DNA of 35,245 nt from Spirochaetales bacterium (GTDB taxonomy: Bacteria > Spirochaetota > Spirochaetia > SZUA-6 > RPPD01): NCBI GenBank assembly GCA_016929065.1, contig JAFGJO010000026.1:1-35245 (forward strand), written 5' to 3'. Positions 3,279 to 11,343 of the stretch are shown here, one piece after another. The notes below the pieces were generated by a model. That model made no database searches and was not told where the DNA came from. It saw only the letters and a program-made list of their open reading frames with translations. The translations under genes and the position numbers were made by a program. The stretch's first letter is position 1; each line of letters begins with the position of its first letter.

Positions 3279-3333
3279 TTGACAAAACATTAATTTAATC
3301 CTAACACAATATTAATATACTATTCTATATATT
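3279..3333 (+). promoter_or_regulatory. Putative Pho box and promoter of pstS
   Basis: Four hexamers resembling TTAACA sit at exact 11-bp spacing: TTGACA (3279), TTAATT (3290), CTAACA (3301), TTAATA (3312). A weak fifth, TTCTAT, is at 3323. A candidate -10, TATATT, is at 3328-3333. The layout resembles PhoP/PhoB boxes, where tandem hexamers with 5-bp spacers replace the -35. The same layout recurs before pstC, and a PhoB-type regulator is encoded in the same locus. Binding is inferred. Confidence 0.7.
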
Positions 3334-3416
3334 GCATATAAGGATACAAAGAGCTTTGTTGTGCGCGATAATCATTGTTTACATAATGATTAATATAATA
3401 TTAAGGAGGTTCATTT

Positions 3417-4265
3417 ATGAACATTCGAATGAAGACAATTTTTGTTTTGAGCATACTTGTACTCGCGGTAGTTTTTATTGCGGCCTGTGGAAAATCGGGA
3501 ACTGTGCAGAGCGTGAATTACGGAGGATCGACGACTGTGCTTCCAATTATGGAGGGCGCCATCGAACAGTTTCAAAAATTGTATCCGGCTGTTACCGTGA
3601 GTTACGAGGCACCCGGCTCAAGTGCGGGAATCAAGGGGGTCGCTGAAGGGACCTACAAGCTGGGTGGATCATCCAGAAAGCTCAAGGACAGCGAGAAGGA
3701 ATCCGGCATCCAGGCGACACCAATAGCACTCGACGGGCTTGCAGTCATCGTGGGTGGAAATGTTCCTGTTGCCGATTTGACAATTGAAAAAGTGGCCAAA
3801 ATATTCGCCGGAGAGACAAAAAATTGGAAAGAAGTCGGCGGGCCGGATATTCCAATAGTCGTGATCAACCGGGATGAGGCATCCGGAACAAGGGGTTCAT
3901 TCAGTGAGCTGGTGCTCCAGCATGTCTTGGGCAAAGATGCGAAATTTGTCGAGACTGCGATTATTGTGGAATCGAATGGAGACATGACGCAGAAAGTCGG
4001 GAATACTCCGAATTCAATCGGGTATTGCGGGTTCGGATACATTGATGCAGCCAAACATGCAGGAGCGAAAGAGGTGAGTATTGCCGGGATGTTACCGGAT
4101 ATTCGGAATGTCTATTCCGACAAATACCCGCTTTCCCGTGAGCTGTATATTGTGCATAAAGGAGACCTTCCGAAGGACGGTGTTGAACGGGATTTTGTGA
4201 ATTTTCTTCTCTCAAAAGACGGACAAAAAATAGTAAAGGACACAGGTTTTATTCCTCTTCCCTGA
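3417..4265 (+). CDS. pstS: Phosphate ABC transporter substrate-binding lipoprotein PstS
   Basis: The periplasmic phosphate receptor of the Pst importer, 282 residues. It has a lipoprotein signal peptide with lipobox IAAC (Cys about 24), so it should be tethered to the inner membrane. Phosphate-binding motifs of the family are present: GGSTTVLP at about 36-43, GSSAGIKG at about 67-74 and EASGTRGSF at about 154-162. TPNSIGY at about 197-203 is the conserved segment also repeated inside the neighbouring PstA. A strong ribosome-binding site (AAGGAGG) precedes the ATG. It is preceded by a hexamer array and followed by its own terminator, so it can be expressed at higher levels than the permease genes, as is common for binding proteins. 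Confidence 0.95.
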   Translation: MNIRMKTIFVLSILVLAVVFIAACGKSGTVQSVNYGGSTTVLPIMEGAIEQFQKLYPAVTVSYEAPGSSAGIKGVAEGTYKLGGSSRKLKDSEKESGIQATPIALDGLAVIVGGNVPVADLTIEKVAKIFAGETKNWKEVGGPDIPIVVINRDEASGTRGSFSELVLQHVLGKDAKFVETAIIVESNGDMTQKVGNTPNSIGYCGFGYIDAAKHAGAKEVSIAGMLPDIRNVYSDKYPLSRELYIVHKGDLPKDGVERDFVNFLLSKDGQKIVKDTGFIPLP

Positions 4266-4277
4266 GTTCTTGTTTCC

Positions 4278-4316
4278 AAAAAGGCTGGTTGGATTGTATA
4301 AAGACCAGCCTTTTTT
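4278..4316 (+). terminator. Rho-independent terminator after pstS
   Basis: A stem AAAAAGGCTGGT / ACCAGCCTTTTT (12 bp) with a 14-base loop ends in a run of six T. It separates pstS from the pstCAB-phoU-phoBR genes, which have their own hexamer array immediately downstream. Confidence 0.9.
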
Positions 4317-4317
4317 A

Positions 4318-4367
4318 TTGAATAGTTGCTAACAATAAACTAATATTCTATTAATATATTAATAACA
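4318..4367 (+). promoter_or_regulatory. Putative Pho box and promoter of pstC-phoR operon
   Basis: Five TTAACA-like hexamers lie at exact 11-bp spacing: TTGAAT (4318), CTAACA (4329), CTAATA (4340), TTAATA (4351), ATAACA (4362). A TATATT lies at 4355-4360. The distance from CTAACA to TATATT is 26 bp here and 27 bp before pstS. Ungapped, the two sites agree at 19 of 24 bases starting from CTAACA. It lies directly after the pstS terminator. Control by the PhoB encoded downstream is inferred. Confidence 0.7.
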
Positions 4368-4388: not shown

Positions 4389-5297
4389 ATGAAAGATATT
4401 TCAAGCCAAAAGAGCAAGGCAATTCGCTTCCGTGAAATAAAAGAAAAAACCATAAAATATGCTCTCCTTATGTGTGCCTTTACTTCGGTTCTCGCTGTTA
4501 TTATCATAACCATGTTTATCTTTTGGGAGGGGATGCCGCTTTTTGGATCGGTGAACCCGATTGAATTTCTGCTGAATCCGCGATGGGAACCCTCTGACGC
4601 AGTGAATCCTTCATACGGTATACTGGCGTTTATTATCGGGTCGGTGTATGTCACCGCGCTCGCACTTTTGCTTGGTATTCCCATTGGGATTGCCTGTGCC
4701 ATCTTTTTGGCGGAAATCGCCAAGGGACCTGTTGCCAAAGTGCTCCGGCGGGCTGTGGAAATACTTGCGGGGATACCTTCGGTGGTCTATGGTTTGTTTG
4801 GGTATCAGACAATTTGTATTTTTGTGCGTGAGTCGTTCGGGGGTACTGGGTACAGCGTGTTATCCGCAGCGATTGTCCTTGCGATTATGATCCTGCCGAC
4901 TATAATAAACATCGGTGAAATATCAATCAGGGCTGTCCCGGGGGAATACAGGGAAGGTTCACTTGCAGTTGGCGCAACACATTGGCAGACAATCGTGCGG
5001 GTGCTCCTGCCTGCTGCCCGCTCCGGTATCATCGCGGGAATTGTCCTGGGAACCGGCCGGGCAATCGGAGAGACCATGGCCGTGCTGATGGTCGCGGGAA
5101 ACTCGACTCCCATCCCTTTTTTGGTTACCGACAGTACCAGAACACTCACCATGAATATTGTCACTGATATGAGCTACGCCTCCGGTTTGCATCGGGTTGC
5201 ACTCTTTACAACAAGCATTGTTTTATTTGTGTTTATCATGATATTGAATTCAGTGATTCAGTTTCTAACCCGAAAAAGCAGGATGCAGGGTGCCTGA
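4389..5297 (+). CDS. pstC: Phosphate ABC transporter permease PstC
   Basis: An inner-membrane permease subunit of the Pst importer, 302 residues, a normal length. TM1 is at about residues 23-47 and is followed by a short loop with the typical FLLNPRWEPSD segment. The permease core then begins at about residue 78. The EAA-type loop that contacts PstB is visible at about 186-213 (EYREGSLAVGATHWQ ... LLPAARSGI), and GRAIGETMAV follows at about 223-232. It pairs with PstA to form the channel. The start has only a weak ribosome-binding site. Its stop codon lies just before the pstA ATG, so translation is probably coupled. Confidence 0.95.
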   Translation: MKDISSQKSKAIRFREIKEKTIKYALLMCAFTSVLAVIIITMFIFWEGMPLFGSVNPIEFLLNPRWEPSDAVNPSYGILAFIIGSVYVTALALLLGIPIGIACAIFLAEIAKGPVAKVLRRAVEILAGIPSVVYGLFGYQTICIFVRESFGGTGYSVLSAAIVLAIMILPTIINIGEISIRAVPGEYREGSLAVGATHWQTIVRVLLPAARSGIIAGIVLGTGRAIGETMAVLMVAGNSTPIPFLVTDSTRTLTMNIVTDMSYASGLHRVALFTTSIVLFVFIMILNSVIQFLTRKSRMQGA

Positions 5298-5298
5298 G

Positions 5299-7311
5299 AT
5301 GAAAAAGATTTCAACAAACAAAACAAATGCACGGTTATTCGAGAAGATTGCAAAGGGATTTCTCTGGATTGCAGCGGGAATGTCAATCGTTGTTTTATTA
5401 TGGATCATCGGGTCAATATTGTTCCAGGGATTTATTGCAATATCCGACCGTGAGTATCCAGTCATTGCGCGGGGAAGCATGACAGCGGCCTTTGATGCTG
5501 AACGAAAGTACACCGCTGCATTTTTAATAAACAGCGGAATTCGTACCGATGAACTTACTGCCCAGGATATTATCGATTTTTATTCACTTGAAAAAACAGA
5601 CTGGGTGATTTCGGCGCAGGATCTGGATGTCTCTTTGTTTTCCTATGAGGCTGAATCAGGATTGGTTGAATCATTCCGTGAAAGTGTATTTGGCGATGAG
5701 TTTCAGCTTGCATTTACTGCCCGGCCCGCTTCAACAGAATATGAGATGCTGGGTAACGTTGCTGCAACACCCGGTGCGATAGGATATATTGACTCCGGCC
5801 TGAAGGCTTTTGCCAAAAGCATGGGGGTAACTGTACTTGATATCCCGGAGGCTGAAAATAAAAAAATTGCCATAATTGTGAACAAAACCATTGGTATTTC
5901 CGAACTCTCGCTGCGACATGTTGTTGAAATATTTTTGGGGGATGAACGCAAATGGAACGAAGGCGGTGTGGATATCGTTCCTTATATTTATACCACAACA
6001 AATACGACTCACTCAGTATTTATTGCTTTGATGCAGGAGGGTATGTTCAAACGTTCCTGTACTCTCGTTGAAAGCGACCATGAGATGATCGAGAAAGTCG
6101 GTTCCACTCCCGGTGCAATCGGATTCATCCCCGAACACGCAATTGATTTGGCACGGCAAAACCCCAATGTAAAAATTGTTACTGTCCGGTCTGTTGCCCT
6201 GTTTGTCAATCCGGCTGTTATGGAGATAAAAGAATACCGGCAGCTGCGGCAAATTGCCGAAGCAAATGTTTCAAAACTTTTTAGTGGTGCCATTACAAAT
6301 TATTCCGAAATAGACGGCATTGATCTGCCTGTTGTTCCCATCCTGTACAAAGAATCAACCCGGATGGATAACGAGCTGAGGACAATACAATTCCCCGAGG
6401 GGTGGGAACATGGTGTTGACGCCATATCCGTTGAAACAGAAGCGGAATTTGTTACGACGCTGTCAAAAACCCCCGGCGGGATAGGGTTCGGCAATTATTT
6501 TTCGCTTCACAATACACTCGTTGGACAAGTGCTTCCGGTACGGCGTCAGGAGATAACACAAAATCTTACGTTTGAGTTTTTAACAGAAGCTCCCAGCAAA
6601 TCAAGCCGGGCTGGCGGAGTCTCCACAATTATCGGGAACACGATACTGCTGATTTTTATCACCCTTCTTTTTGCGGTTCCCTTCGGCATAGGCGGAGCAG
6701 TGTATCTGGTTGAATATTCACGGCAGGGCATGCTGGTAAATACCCTTAGATTTTTTACCGAAACCCTTGCGGGGATACCATCCATTATTTACGGGTTATT
6801 CGGATACATCCTTTTTCGAATCGTCTTTGGACTCCAGGAGGGAATATTGTCCGCCGGGCTCACTTTGATGATCATGATTCTGCCCACCATAATTCGTACG
6901 GCAGAGGAGGCCTTGAAGTCAGTTCCAAAGTCATATCGCTTTGAGAGTTTTGCTCTTGGCGCGACCAAATGGCAGACGATCCGCAGGGTAATCCTGCCTG
7001 CTGCATCACCCGGCATTGTCACCGGTATTATTCTGGGTGTTGGACGCGCAATCGGGGAAACAGCAGCAGTCTTGTTTACCTGCGGCTCCAGTTCGCGGTT
7101 TGTACTGGATCAGGGTGTTAATGTTGAGATGTTTACAAAATCAGCGCGGGTCCTCGCCCTGCATATCTTTTTTCTTTTCAAGGAGAGCGCGGGGAATGTA
7201 CGGGCGATTCACCAGGCATACGCAACATCAGCTATTTTGATTATCGTTATCCTTGGAATTAACCTGCTGACCGCCCAGCTTTTAAAAAGAATGAATTCAA
7301 TGCGGAATTAA
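5299..7311 (+). CDS. pstA: PstA permease with a large inserted PstS-like periplasmic region
   Basis: The second Pst permease subunit, but about 670 residues instead of the usual 280-300. TM1 lies at about 19-46. The permease core resumes at [15 protein letters not shown] (about 427) and continues to the end, with the EAA loop at about 545-575 ([10 protein letters not shown] ... ILPAASPGI) and [10 protein letters not shown]. Between them is a predicted extracytoplasmic insert of about 375 residues. It contains three repeats resembling half of a PstS: each has a hydrophobic strand, an IF/LFxG...W-type segment in repeats 2 and 3, and a TPGAIGY/F or TPGGIGF motif at about 157, 270 and 391. The SGTR phosphate-binding loop is not conserved in any repeat. 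An upstream GTG at 5290 is possible, but ATG 5299 has CAGGG at the right distance. The reading frame is open throughout and spacing to pstC and pstB is tight, so this is not an assembly join of two genes. Confidence 0.92.
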
Positions 7312-7325
7312 CTGGAGAACAGGAA

Positions 7326-8084
7326 ATGAATGATACAAAGATCAGTACACAAAATTTGAATCTTTTTTACGGGGATGTACAAGCGCTTCAGGATATTTCA
7401 TTTGATATGAATGAGCATTCAGTGACTGCTTTGATCGGGCCGTCGGGATGCGGAAAGTCGACCTTTTTGAGGGTGATCAACCGAATGAATGATCTGATAG
7501 ATTCGGTTAAAATTACCGGTACTGTCCTTTACAATGGCAACAATATTTACGAAGGCAGTTTCGATGTCATTGCACTCCGTAAAAGCATTGGGATGGTATT
7601 CCAGAAACCCAATCCTTTTCCCATGAGTATTTATGATAATGTGGCGTACGGGCCGAGGATTCACGGAATAAGAAAAAAAGACGAGCTGGACTCGATTGTT
7701 GAAAAAAGCATCCGCCAGGCGGCTCTATGGGATGAAGTATCGGACCGGTTGAATACCCCGGCTCTGGGGCTGTCGGGCGGACAGCAGCAGCGGTTGTGTA
7801 TTGCCCGCGTGCTTGCAGTGGAACCGGACGTCATCCTGATGGATGAACCCACCTCGGCACTCGATCCCATTTCTACTGCTAAAATAGAAGATTTGATCAA
7901 CGAGCTGAAGCAGATGTACACAATTATTATTGTCACACATAATATGCAGCAGGCAGGCAGGATCTCGGATGTAACAGGGTTCTTTTTGAATGGAGTTCTT
8001 GTTGAAACCGGGCCGACAAAGGATATATTTTTTAACCCGAAAGAAAAAAGAACTGAGGATTATATTTCCGGCCGTTTTGGTTGA
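7326..8084 (+). CDS. pstB: Phosphate ABC transporter ATP-binding protein PstB
   Basis: The cytoplasmic ATPase that powers phosphate import, 252 residues, the usual length. Walker [10 protein letters not shown] is at about 38-46, the Q-loop FQKPNPFPM at about 92-100, signature LSGGQQQR at about 149-156 and Walker [13 protein letters not shown] at about 169-180. The H-loop VTHNMQQA follows. The FQKPNPFP and THNMQQA segments are diagnostic for PstB rather than other importers. It starts 14 bp after pstA with an AGGA-type ribosome-binding site and is followed by phoU. Confidence 0.97.
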
Positions 8085-8111: not shown

Positions 8112-8780
8112 ATGCGGCAAAGTTATACCGAGAAACTGGATGATTTGAAAATTGAGGTACTTCGGATGGGGGCATTGGTTGAAGACGCCATCACCAAAGC
8201 TTCCTATTCGCTTCTCAGGCAGGAGGTGTCTCTTGCCGAGGAGGTGCTCCGCAATGAAGAACATATCAATAAATATGAGACAATCATAGAAGATAAATGC
8301 GTGATTCTCGTTGCGACAGAGCAGCCTGTGGCACATGACCTGCGTTTAATTATTTCAACATTAAAATCCATACGGGATCTTGAGCGGATCGGAGATTATG
8401 CCGCACATCTTGCTTCTATAGCACGGAATTTAATCGGCGGAAATTTTCTGGAAAAATTTTCTCTGCCGCTGCACAACAATATTAAAAAAATGTTCGAGAT
8501 GTGTGTCGAGATGATAAAAAAAACAATGCAGGCCTTTCGTGAGGAAGATGCGGGGATTGCACGGGAAGTCATGGAGTTTGACGAGCAGGTAGACTCATTA
8601 TATCTTGATGTATTCAAGGAATTTCTTGGAGATATGAAACAGGATCCTTCATACGCACATCAGTTGAATTCATTGATTTTTGTGTCAAAATACCTGGAAC
8701 GGCTGGCAGACCATGTCATCAATATTTGCGAGGAAATAATTTATATCCAGACCGGTGAACGGGTTGAAAAACAAAACTAA
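8112..8780 (+). CDS. phoU: Phosphate signalling regulator PhoU
   Basis: A cytoplasmic all-helical protein of 222 residues, made of two three-helix PhoU repeats. Known members link the PstB/PstA transporter to PhoR and keep the regulon off when phosphate is plentiful. Family signatures are visible: RQSYTEKLDDLKIEVLRMG at the N-terminus, then QPVAHDLRLIISTLKSI and DLERIGDYAAHLA in repeat 1. LNSLIFVSKYLERLADHVINI is in repeat 2. The two E-R-x-(G/A)-D sites bind metal clusters in solved structures. It lies 27 bp after pstB, in the standard gene order. Confidence 0.95.
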   Translation: MRQSYTEKLDDLKIEVLRMGALVEDAITKASYSLLRQEVSLAEEVLRNEEHINKYETIIEDKCVILVATEQPVAHDLRLIISTLKSIRDLERIGDYAAHLASIARNLIGGNFLEKFSLPLHNNIKKMFEMCVEMIKKTMQAFREEDAGIAREVMEFDEQVDSLYLDVFKEFLGDMKQDPSYAHQLNSLIFVSKYLERLADHVINICEEIIYIQTGERVEKQN

Positions 8781-8811: not shown

Positions 8812-9507
8812 ATGGCAAAAACAACGATACTGATTGTAGAGGATGACCAGGATATTCTCGATCTCATTTCCCACCATCTTGTAAAGGAAGGGTATACTGT
8901 CCGGACAGAAACAAACGGATCATCCGCTTTGCTGCAGATTGGTTCGCTCAATCCGGATTTGATTCTGCTTGATATCATGCTTCCGGGTATTGACGGGCTT
9001 GAAATCTGCCGGCAGGTAAAATCAAACACAGATACTGCTGATATTCCCATTATTATGGTGTCGGCAAAAGATGCGGAGGCTGATATTACCAAAGGGCTTG
9101 ACCTTGGTGCGGATGATTATGTCACAAAACCGTTCAGCCCCTCCGTCCTTGCCTCGAGGGTAAAAGCAGTTTTACGCAGGAAAAAAGATCAGGTACGGGC
9201 TAAAAAAATGAAAGATGCGCCGGTAGTATTGAGTGACTTGTATATTGATCCGGGAAAACACAGCGTGAGGGTCAAGAACCGGAATGTGTCGCTGACCATG
9301 ACAGAGTTTCAGATTCTGTACCTGCTTGCCAGCAACCCGGGCTGGGTATACACCCGCTACCAGATTGTCGAGGCAGTCCGCGGCGATTCCTACCATGTGA
9401 CTGACCGTTCAGTGGATGTGCTTGTGTTTGGCCTTCGTAAAAAGCTGGAAGAATGCGGTGAATACATCGAGACTGTACGGGGGATCGGGTATCGCTTTAA
9501 AGAGTAA
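8812..9507 (+). CDS. phoB: Phosphate regulon response regulator, PhoB/OmpR family
   Basis: A two-domain transcription factor of 231 residues. The receiver domain has the acidic pair VEDD (about 9-12), phosphoacceptor Asp54 in LLDIMLPG, the switch Ser84 (VSAKD) and Lys106 (VTKPF). The C-terminal winged helix (about 130-231) ends with the typical TVRGIGYRFKE. Position after phoU and before phoR, plus tandem hexamer arrays upstream of pstS and pstC, support assignment as the phosphate regulator. It could equally be called PhoP in Gram-positive style. The 31-bp gap to phoU contains no obvious separate promoter. Confidence 0.93.
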   Translation: MAKTTILIVEDDQDILDLISHHLVKEGYTVRTETNGSSALLQIGSLNPDLILLDIMLPGIDGLEICRQVKSNTDTADIPIIMVSAKDAEADITKGLDLGADDYVTKPFSPSVLASRVKAVLRRKKDQVRAKKMKDAPVVLSDLYIDPGKHSVRVKNRNVSLTMTEFQILYLLASNPGWVYTRYQIVEAVRGDSYHVTDRSVDVLVFGLRKKLEECGEYIETVRGIGYRFKE

Positions 9508-9522
9508 ACCAGGAGCATCGGA

Positions 9523-11343
9523 TTGAAGAGATTCACTATCATATTGTTTCCGCTGTTATGGCGCTCAATCATTTTTATTATCATAGCCTCCCTGTTCAGC
9601 CTGATGATTATTATACCAGTGGTACAGTTGGGCCGGGAGAGCCAGTTAAAAGATGATCTGCTGATACAGGCCAGGCTTGTTTCGTTTCAAATTGATAAGG
9701 CCATAGAAAACCGGGAATATGTATATGTCAACGAAATCCTTGAAAAGGTTTCCCGAACCGCCCGTGTCGGGATTACCCTGATCTCGCCAGAGAAAAGAGT
9801 GTATTTCCAGGGCGAAGCAGATGCCTTGTCTTCCGAAAACCTGATGATCCGGCAGGAGATTCAAGCTGCAATCAATAATGGAGAGGGTACGGCAAGCAGG
9901 TACAGCACAACATTTGCTTCCAATATAATATATGCGGCAATCATATTGCCCATGCAGAATCAGGAAGGTTTCAGTATCCTGCGGCTTTCTGCTCCGGTTT
10001 CGGCCAATGTATTGATGTTTTTTATCCCGCTTGGCGGGTGGCTATTGCCCGGGTTCGCAGTAATCATTCTGTTTGTTTTTTTGATTTTTTACGGGTATTC
10101 CCGAAAAATCATGCGGCCGGTTGAACGTCTTGCGTATGTAACCCGTACATTGTATCCCGATATTCCTCAGAAAGATTTAAGTTCCAAACGGTCATCAGTT
10201 TTTATGTTTCCGGAAATAAATCATGCAGTACATATCATGTATGCATTATCAAAACAATTAAAGCAAAGTGCAGACCGTTGGGTACACCGCCAATTATGGG
10301 AGACCTCAATTCTCGCGGGCATGACCGAAGGGGTACTGGCGATTGATGTGAACTTCCATATCCTGGTGATGAACCCGGCTCTTGCAGAAATGTTTCATAT
10401 CACCAGGGAATTGGTCATTGGAGAGCGCGTTGAAAAAGTATTCCCCGGCATGAGCATAATCAATCTGATTGAAGAAATATTCCAGGAACGGAGAACCATT
10501 GACAGGATCCTGACGATTCTGGAAAACCATGACCGCTTTCTGCAAGTTATCGGCACACCTCTTTTTGAGGATGATAACAATTGCTATGGAGTTCTCCTGG
10601 TGATTCGTGATGTGACAAATATTCGCAGGCTTGAAACAGTCCGCAGGGAATTCGCGTCGAATGTGTCACATGAATTGAAAACTCCGCTTACTTCAATAAA
10701 AGGGTATGTGGAGACGCTGATTGATGACCCTTCTTTGGACGAAAATAAAAAACAATGGTTCCTCTCAATTGTAAAAAAACAGACAGAAAGAGTTATTGCG
10801 ATTATTGAGGATTTGCTGCAGCTTTCAGGTATCGAGAAGGATATAGAGCGGAACTTGTTGAGTTTTGAAAAAACGAATTTATACATAATTATCTGTGATG
10901 CAGTTGAGGTGTGTACTGCGCACAGCAGGCAGAAAAAAATTAATATTCATGTCGATTGCCCGGAAAAAATAATGGTCCGGCTTCATCCTCACTTGTTTGA
11001 ACAGGCGATGGTGAATCTGATTGACAATGCCGTCAAATACAGTAATCCTGAATCAACGGTGAATGTCTCTGTTGAAAAAAGAAAAGGCGAAATTTGTGTC
11101 CGGGTTCAGGATTTTGGATGCGGCATTCCGTCAGAGCATCTGCCGCGGCTTTTTGAACGGTTTTACCGGGTGGACAAGGCGCGGAGCCGGGATATGGGGG
11201 GAACCGGACTTGGGCTCGCGATTGTCAAACATATTATCCAGGCGCACCAGGGACGATATGCAGTTGAAAGTAATGTTGGAAAAGGGAGTACGTTTACACT
11301 CTGTCTTCCGGATACTGATGATGGGCATGCTTTGACCAATTAG
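9523..11343 (+). CDS. phoR: Phosphate-regulon sensor histidine kinase PhoR
   Basis: A membrane sensor kinase of 606 residues that starts at TTG, supported by AGGAG seven bases upstream. TM1 is at about 11-36. An extracytoplasmic region of about 120 residues follows, then TM2 at about 165-191 and a linker. A PAS domain lies at about 258-365 (GMTEGVLAIDVNFHILVMNPA). The HisKA phosphoacceptor is His383 in SHELKTPLTS. The HATPase domain follows, with an N-box MVNLIDNAVKYS, G1 DFGCGIP and G2 GGTGLGLAIVKHI. This order (two TMs, PAS, kinase) is that of Gram-positive PhoR/WalK-type kinases with an extracellular domain, longer than E. coli PhoR. It is adjacent to phoB by 15 bp. Confidence 0.93.
   Translation: MKRFTIILFPLLWRSIIFIIIASLFSLMIIIPVVQLGRESQLKDDLLIQARLVSFQIDKAIENREYVYVNEILEKVSRTARVGITLISPEKRVYFQGEADALSSENLMIRQEIQAAINNGEGTASRYSTTFASNIIYAAIILPMQNQEGFSILRLSAPVSANVLMFFIPLGGWLLPGFAVIILFVFLIFYGYSRKIMRPVERLAYVTRTLYPDIPQKDLSSKRSSVFMFPEINHAVHIMYALSKQLKQSADRWVHRQLWETSILAGMTEGVLAIDVNFHILVMNPALAEMFHITRELVIGERVEKVFPGMSIINLIEEIFQERRTIDRILTILENHDRFLQVIGTPLFEDDNNCYGVLLVIRDVTNIRRLETVRREFASNVSHELKTPLTSIKGYVETLIDDPSLDENKKQWFLSIVKKQTERVIAIIEDLLQLSGIEKDIERNLLSFEKTNLYIIICDAVEVCTAHSRQKKINIHVDCPEKIMVRLHPHLFEQAMVNLIDNAVKYSNPESTVNVSVEKRKGEICVRVQDFGCGIPSEHLPRLFERFYRVDKARSRDMGGTGLGLAIVKHIIQAHQGRYAVESNVGKGSTFTLCLPDTDDGHALTN

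Follow-up and report, generated by a model that had tools for sequence, protein, structure and literature searches.

Tandem TTAACA-like repeats upstream of pstS and pstC in a spirochaete as probable Pho boxes conserved in related pst loci

The PhoP box of Bacillus subtilis is formed by TTAACA-like hexamers that are separated by N5 spacers. The E. coli Pho box is formed by a CTGTCAT motif arranged in 11-nt repeats, and the Pho box word in Streptomyces is GTTCACC (PMC4415409). Tandem direct repeats are also found in the cyanobacterial (PMC1906773) and actinobacterial Pho boxes, where they are bound by a PhoB or PhoP homologue. In the E. coli protein, Arg201 of PhoB hydrogen-bonds a guanine (PMC3973317). 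No published description of a Pho box in spirochaetes was found in the open-access literature that was searched.

The window analysed here is a stretch of 35,245 nucleotides from the 3.49-Mb, AT-rich draft genome of a Spirochaetales bacterium. The genes pstS, pstC, pstA, pstB, phoU, phoB and phoR follow one another in this order on a single strand, no gap from pstC onward exceeds 32 bases, and a hexamer array is located in the leader of pstS and in that of pstC:

3279-3317, + strand: predicted Pho-box array of pstS, with TTGACA (3279), TTAATT (3290), CTAACA (3301) and TTAATA (3312) in 11-bp steps
3328-3333, + strand: TATATT, an unproven candidate -10 hexamer of pstS
3417-4265, + strand: pstS, phosphate-binding lipoprotein (PBP_like_2, E = 4e-36)
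4278-4317, + strand: intrinsic terminator 3' of pstS, which abuts the pstC array and ends just before 4318
4318-4367, + strand: predicted Pho-box array of pstC, with TTGAAT (4318), CTAACA (4329), CTAATA (4340), TTAATA (4351) and ATAACA (4362)
4389-5297, + strand: pstC, permease (BPD_transp_1)
5290-7311, + strand: pstA, permease that carries a large PstS-like insert (open reading frame and Pfam domains)
7326-8084, + strand: pstB, ATPase
8112-8780, + strand: phoU (PhoU, E = 2e-43)
8812-9507, + strand: phoB, response regulator proposed to bind the arrays (Response_reg and Trans_reg_C)
9523-11343, + strand: phoR, sensor kinase (PAS, HisKA and HATPase_c)

The initial annotation had reported nine hexamers in strict 11-bp register, and each of them was recovered at its given coordinate when the sequence was checked. 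Both arrays are thus tandem direct repeats with an 11-bp period. The best core of the pstS array spans positions 3290-3317 and that of the pstC array positions 4329-4356, while the outer units (TTGACA, TTAATT, TTGAAT and ATAACA) are weaker than the array cores.

The arrays share with the B. subtilis PhoP box its hexamer word, 5-bp spacer and 11-bp direct repeats, the presence of several units per operator and the location upstream of pst and other phosphate genes. Measured against the generally known B. subtilis consensus, the hexamers are TTAACA-like with 5-bp spacers, but they often begin with C (CTAACA), and pstC has here an operator of its own, the second of the locus, behind a terminator. 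The E. coli Pho box is similar in having 11-nt tandem repeats upstream of pstS and a regulator of the PhoB family, whereas the word found here is CTAACA instead of CTGTCA and residue 201 of PhoB is glycine instead of arginine. Allowing up to three mismatches, four CTGTCAT half-sites were found in the window against 2.6 expected, none of them at the arrays, and CTGTCAT-N4-CTGTCAT did not occur above chance, which agrees with the earlier proposal that the arrays are closer to the Bacillus than to the E. coli operator. The cyanobacterial and actinobacterial boxes are alike in their tandem arrangement but differ in the repeat word. Arrays of the TTAACA type were also observed upstream of pst genes in contigs of Bacillota, Bacteroidales and WOR-1 (e.g. 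L067, L114 and L134), where they score with the spirochaete matrix described below and are located upstream of the pstC match and on its strand, although they are weaker and carry TTAACA rather than CTAACA. The word is therefore not confined to spirochaetes. By its structure, its context and its cognate regulator, the box is most likely a Pho box, of the TTAACA kind and not of the CTGTCAT kind.

Both arrays are very probably Pho boxes bound by PhoB, where one would drive pstS and the other the pstC-pstA-pstB-phoU-phoB-phoR operon. The 11-bp unit (C/T)TAA(C/T)A-N5 would be present in three to five direct copies in each operator, to which phosphorylated PhoB, encoded 4.4 kb downstream of the arrays, would bind head-to-tail. 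When phosphate is scarce, PhoR would phosphorylate PhoB and the arrays would be filled, and PhoB would then recruit RNA polymerase beside the -35 region to produce two transcripts. The first would carry only pstS and stop at the terminator of that gene, and the second would cover the tightly packed unit from pstC to phoR. As this unit includes phoB and phoR, the regulator is expected to raise its own synthesis by positive feedback.

The terminator that the initial annotation had placed between pstS and the second array was observed to be real, with a 13-bp stem, a 12-base loop, a U-run and a fold z of -3.9. It is found at the same place in all 12 relatives tested, 5-67 bases before the array. 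A terminator of its own after pstS and an array before each of pstS and pstC make two transcripts, pstS and pstC-phoR, the simplest arrangement. Generic sigma-70 and terminator scans returned nothing useful at these leaders, and the terminator scan, whose loop limit is 8 bases, misses the 12-base loop of this hairpin.

The spacing of TATATT was also found to be as first described, the start of the hexamer lying 27 bases (pstS) and 26 bases (pstC) downstream of that of CTAACA. The -10 positions are not consistent; among relatives, -10-like hexamers are weakly concentrated 17-20 nt downstream of the third hexamer, and the promoters of the window are ambiguous. At pstC, TATATT (4355-4360) overlaps the array unit at 4351 and is followed by another one at 4362, an arrangement that would suit a PhoB which binds but mainly represses or tunes at one site, for example over the pstC -10. 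Such a role is a variant of the PhoB reading and does not exclude it, but we consider it improbable, as several relatives have their last clear hexamer 17-20 nt before a -10-like hexamer, where an activator box would be located. In three of the relatives' loci (L157, L158 and L193), the last clear hexamer is located 17 bp before a TAATAT or TAATAG hexamer, at the -35 place. It is also generally known, and reviewed in PMC4415409, that regulators of the PhoB type mostly activate pst genes.

In nearly all close pstC orthologues, the leader was found to contain YTAACA-like units, two to four in number, in 11-bp register, and several genomes that have pstC behind pstS but lack an array in the space between carry one before pstS instead. 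More distant PstC relatives (e.g. L019-L022 and L028-L031) showed no array, which indicates that the box is a feature of this pst lineage rather than a universal one. When the upstream regions were pooled, pairs of YTAAYA were observed at distances of 11 (26 times), 22 (12 times), 33 (4 times) and 44 bp (3 times); no other distance within 45 bp gave more than one pair, and the opposite strand gave a single pair in total. A matrix was built from the arrays of 30 relatives, with the genome of the window excluded, and over about 70,000 window positions it ranked 4329 first (17.3) and 3290 second (14.3), the next score being 9.6. The sites of this matrix were picked by eye with weight given to YTAAYA, and it is thus not fully independent of the word first noticed in the window; this choice affects the spacing and pattern counts less. 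The pstS array is degenerate, and its score differs little from the highest one in the reversed control (13.8).

In 148 genomes of the class, a search for the strict pattern YTAAC-N6-YTAACA-N5-YTAACA gave 22 occurrences, against one for the reversed control. The genes downstream are pstC (10), pstS (6), phoU (2), phoR (1), a Na/Pi cotransporter (1) and others (2), and hence 20 of the matches are located directly upstream of phosphate genes; seven of these assignments were confirmed by Pfam and the others were read from the protein sequence. With one mismatch allowed in a slightly narrower pattern, 31 loci were found (4 in the control), 28 of them at phosphate genes, phoB included. These class counts include sister genomes, which are not independent. 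Boxes before a tRNA-like gene (G047, L161) and a ROK-type gene (G016, L156) look like chance. A four-unit box was observed in the interval that separates a phytase gene (PF02333) from the gene for a DctP-type binding protein (L153, G069:C1:144363-144401); it faces away from the DctP gene and was left uncounted as a phosphate target.

The association with phosphate genes, phoU, phoR and phoB among them, also bears on the regulator. Tandem half-sites at 11 bp are common to the OmpR/PhoB family and several PhoB-like paralogues are encoded in these genomes, so that a different member of the OmpR family, such as a WalR/YycF-like protein, might be thought to bind the arrays. The WalR-type consensus is TGTWAH-N5-TGTWAH. 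The arrays contain no perfect copy of this pattern, and the window shows no enrichment of it, with a count not above chance; the only match near the arrays has one mismatch and is on the opposite strand (4351-4367). Together with the tracking of phosphate genes, this makes another regulator very unlikely, and PhoB is retained as the proposed binder.

Other phosphate genes of the same genome were found to carry the box, namely a Na/Pi cotransporter gene that includes PhoU (L048:2470) and a second pstS (L056:3275), and with the arrays at orthologous pst loci across the class they support the proposal of a Pho operator for this lineage. Sites in this genome were counted by pattern searches. Pairs of YTAAYA are not enriched genome-wide (14 against 30 in the reversed control) and were dropped as a predictor, and triples in which one or two mismatches were allowed gave counts not clearly above control, so that only exact triples together with the identity of the downstream gene are informative here. 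Exact triples occur at three places, pstC, the Na/Pi cotransporter and an orphan gene on contig C10, and at none in the reversed control. The relatives' matrix gives 21.8 for the Na/Pi cotransporter leader, 17.7 for the C10 orphan and 13.6 for the second pstS, scores that were reached by 0, 1 and 10 of 5000 dinucleotide shuffles respectively. In the window itself, YTAAYA-N5-YTAAYA was seen three times, always in the pstS and pstC leaders, against 0.10 expected from dinucleotide shuffles. Although the leaders have only 24-29% GC and pairs alone are not enriched, chance register of YTAAYA words in AT-rich sequence can be set aside, since shuffles of the same leaders attain the observed score, under the matrix trained on other genomes, in 10 of 5000 cases for pstS and in 0 of 5000 for pstC, and since the 11-bp spacing is conserved over many families.

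In the Na/Pi cotransporter leader (L048:2470-2530), a near-perfect TTGACA-17-TATGAT promoter lies right behind the box and ends about 7 bases before the ATG, and its transcript may therefore be leaderless. The second pstS is diverged (gene 3374-4231, box L056:3275-3305, contig C37) and the box in its leader is weaker. The exact triple on C10 (L047:2327-2300, minus strand) is located 139 bases upstream of the gene for a 144-aa orphan protein, for which neither a Pfam match nor, in 60 genomes, a relative was found. This gene is without a known phosphate link and is possibly an unrecognised member of the Pho regulon.

Both a PhoB and a PhoR are encoded in this genome, and a pstC-linked PhoB was observed in most relatives. 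The window PhoB consists of receiver and winged-helix domains, and its DNA-binding domain matches the E. coli PhoB structures 3t72 and 1gxp (E about 1.5e-14). The residue aligned to Arg201 is glycine in this protein; among 14 spirochaete sequences it is glycine in 11, asparagine in two and alanine in one, and never arginine. Glycine at this position appears to fit the different repeat word, CTAACA against CTGTCA, as a correlation and not as proof. We can propose only tentatively, and with some doubt, a class-wide spirochaete Pho regulon that has its own word, (C/T)TAACA, and a PhoB whose lineage would have lost the guanine-contacting Arg201, in which specificity and operator would have changed together and which would include targets beyond uptake genes, such as the 144-aa orphan here and a chemoreceptor-like protein and others in relatives. 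A defined operator would make the phosphate regulon of a large and mostly uncultured class readable from sequence, and it offers a compact test case for a joint change of PhoB recognition and operator.

The PstA protein (5290-7311) has 673 aa and carries a large insert with PstS-like (PBP_like_2) sequence before the permease domain. In many relatives the second permease is likewise found inside open frames of 500-800 aa, and the binding-protein-like insert may be clade-wide. Elsewhere in the class, a one-mismatch box is located upstream of a membrane protein which resembles the start of a chemoreceptor or sensor (L212, G128:C145, minus strand), where a link to phosphate taxis is possible.
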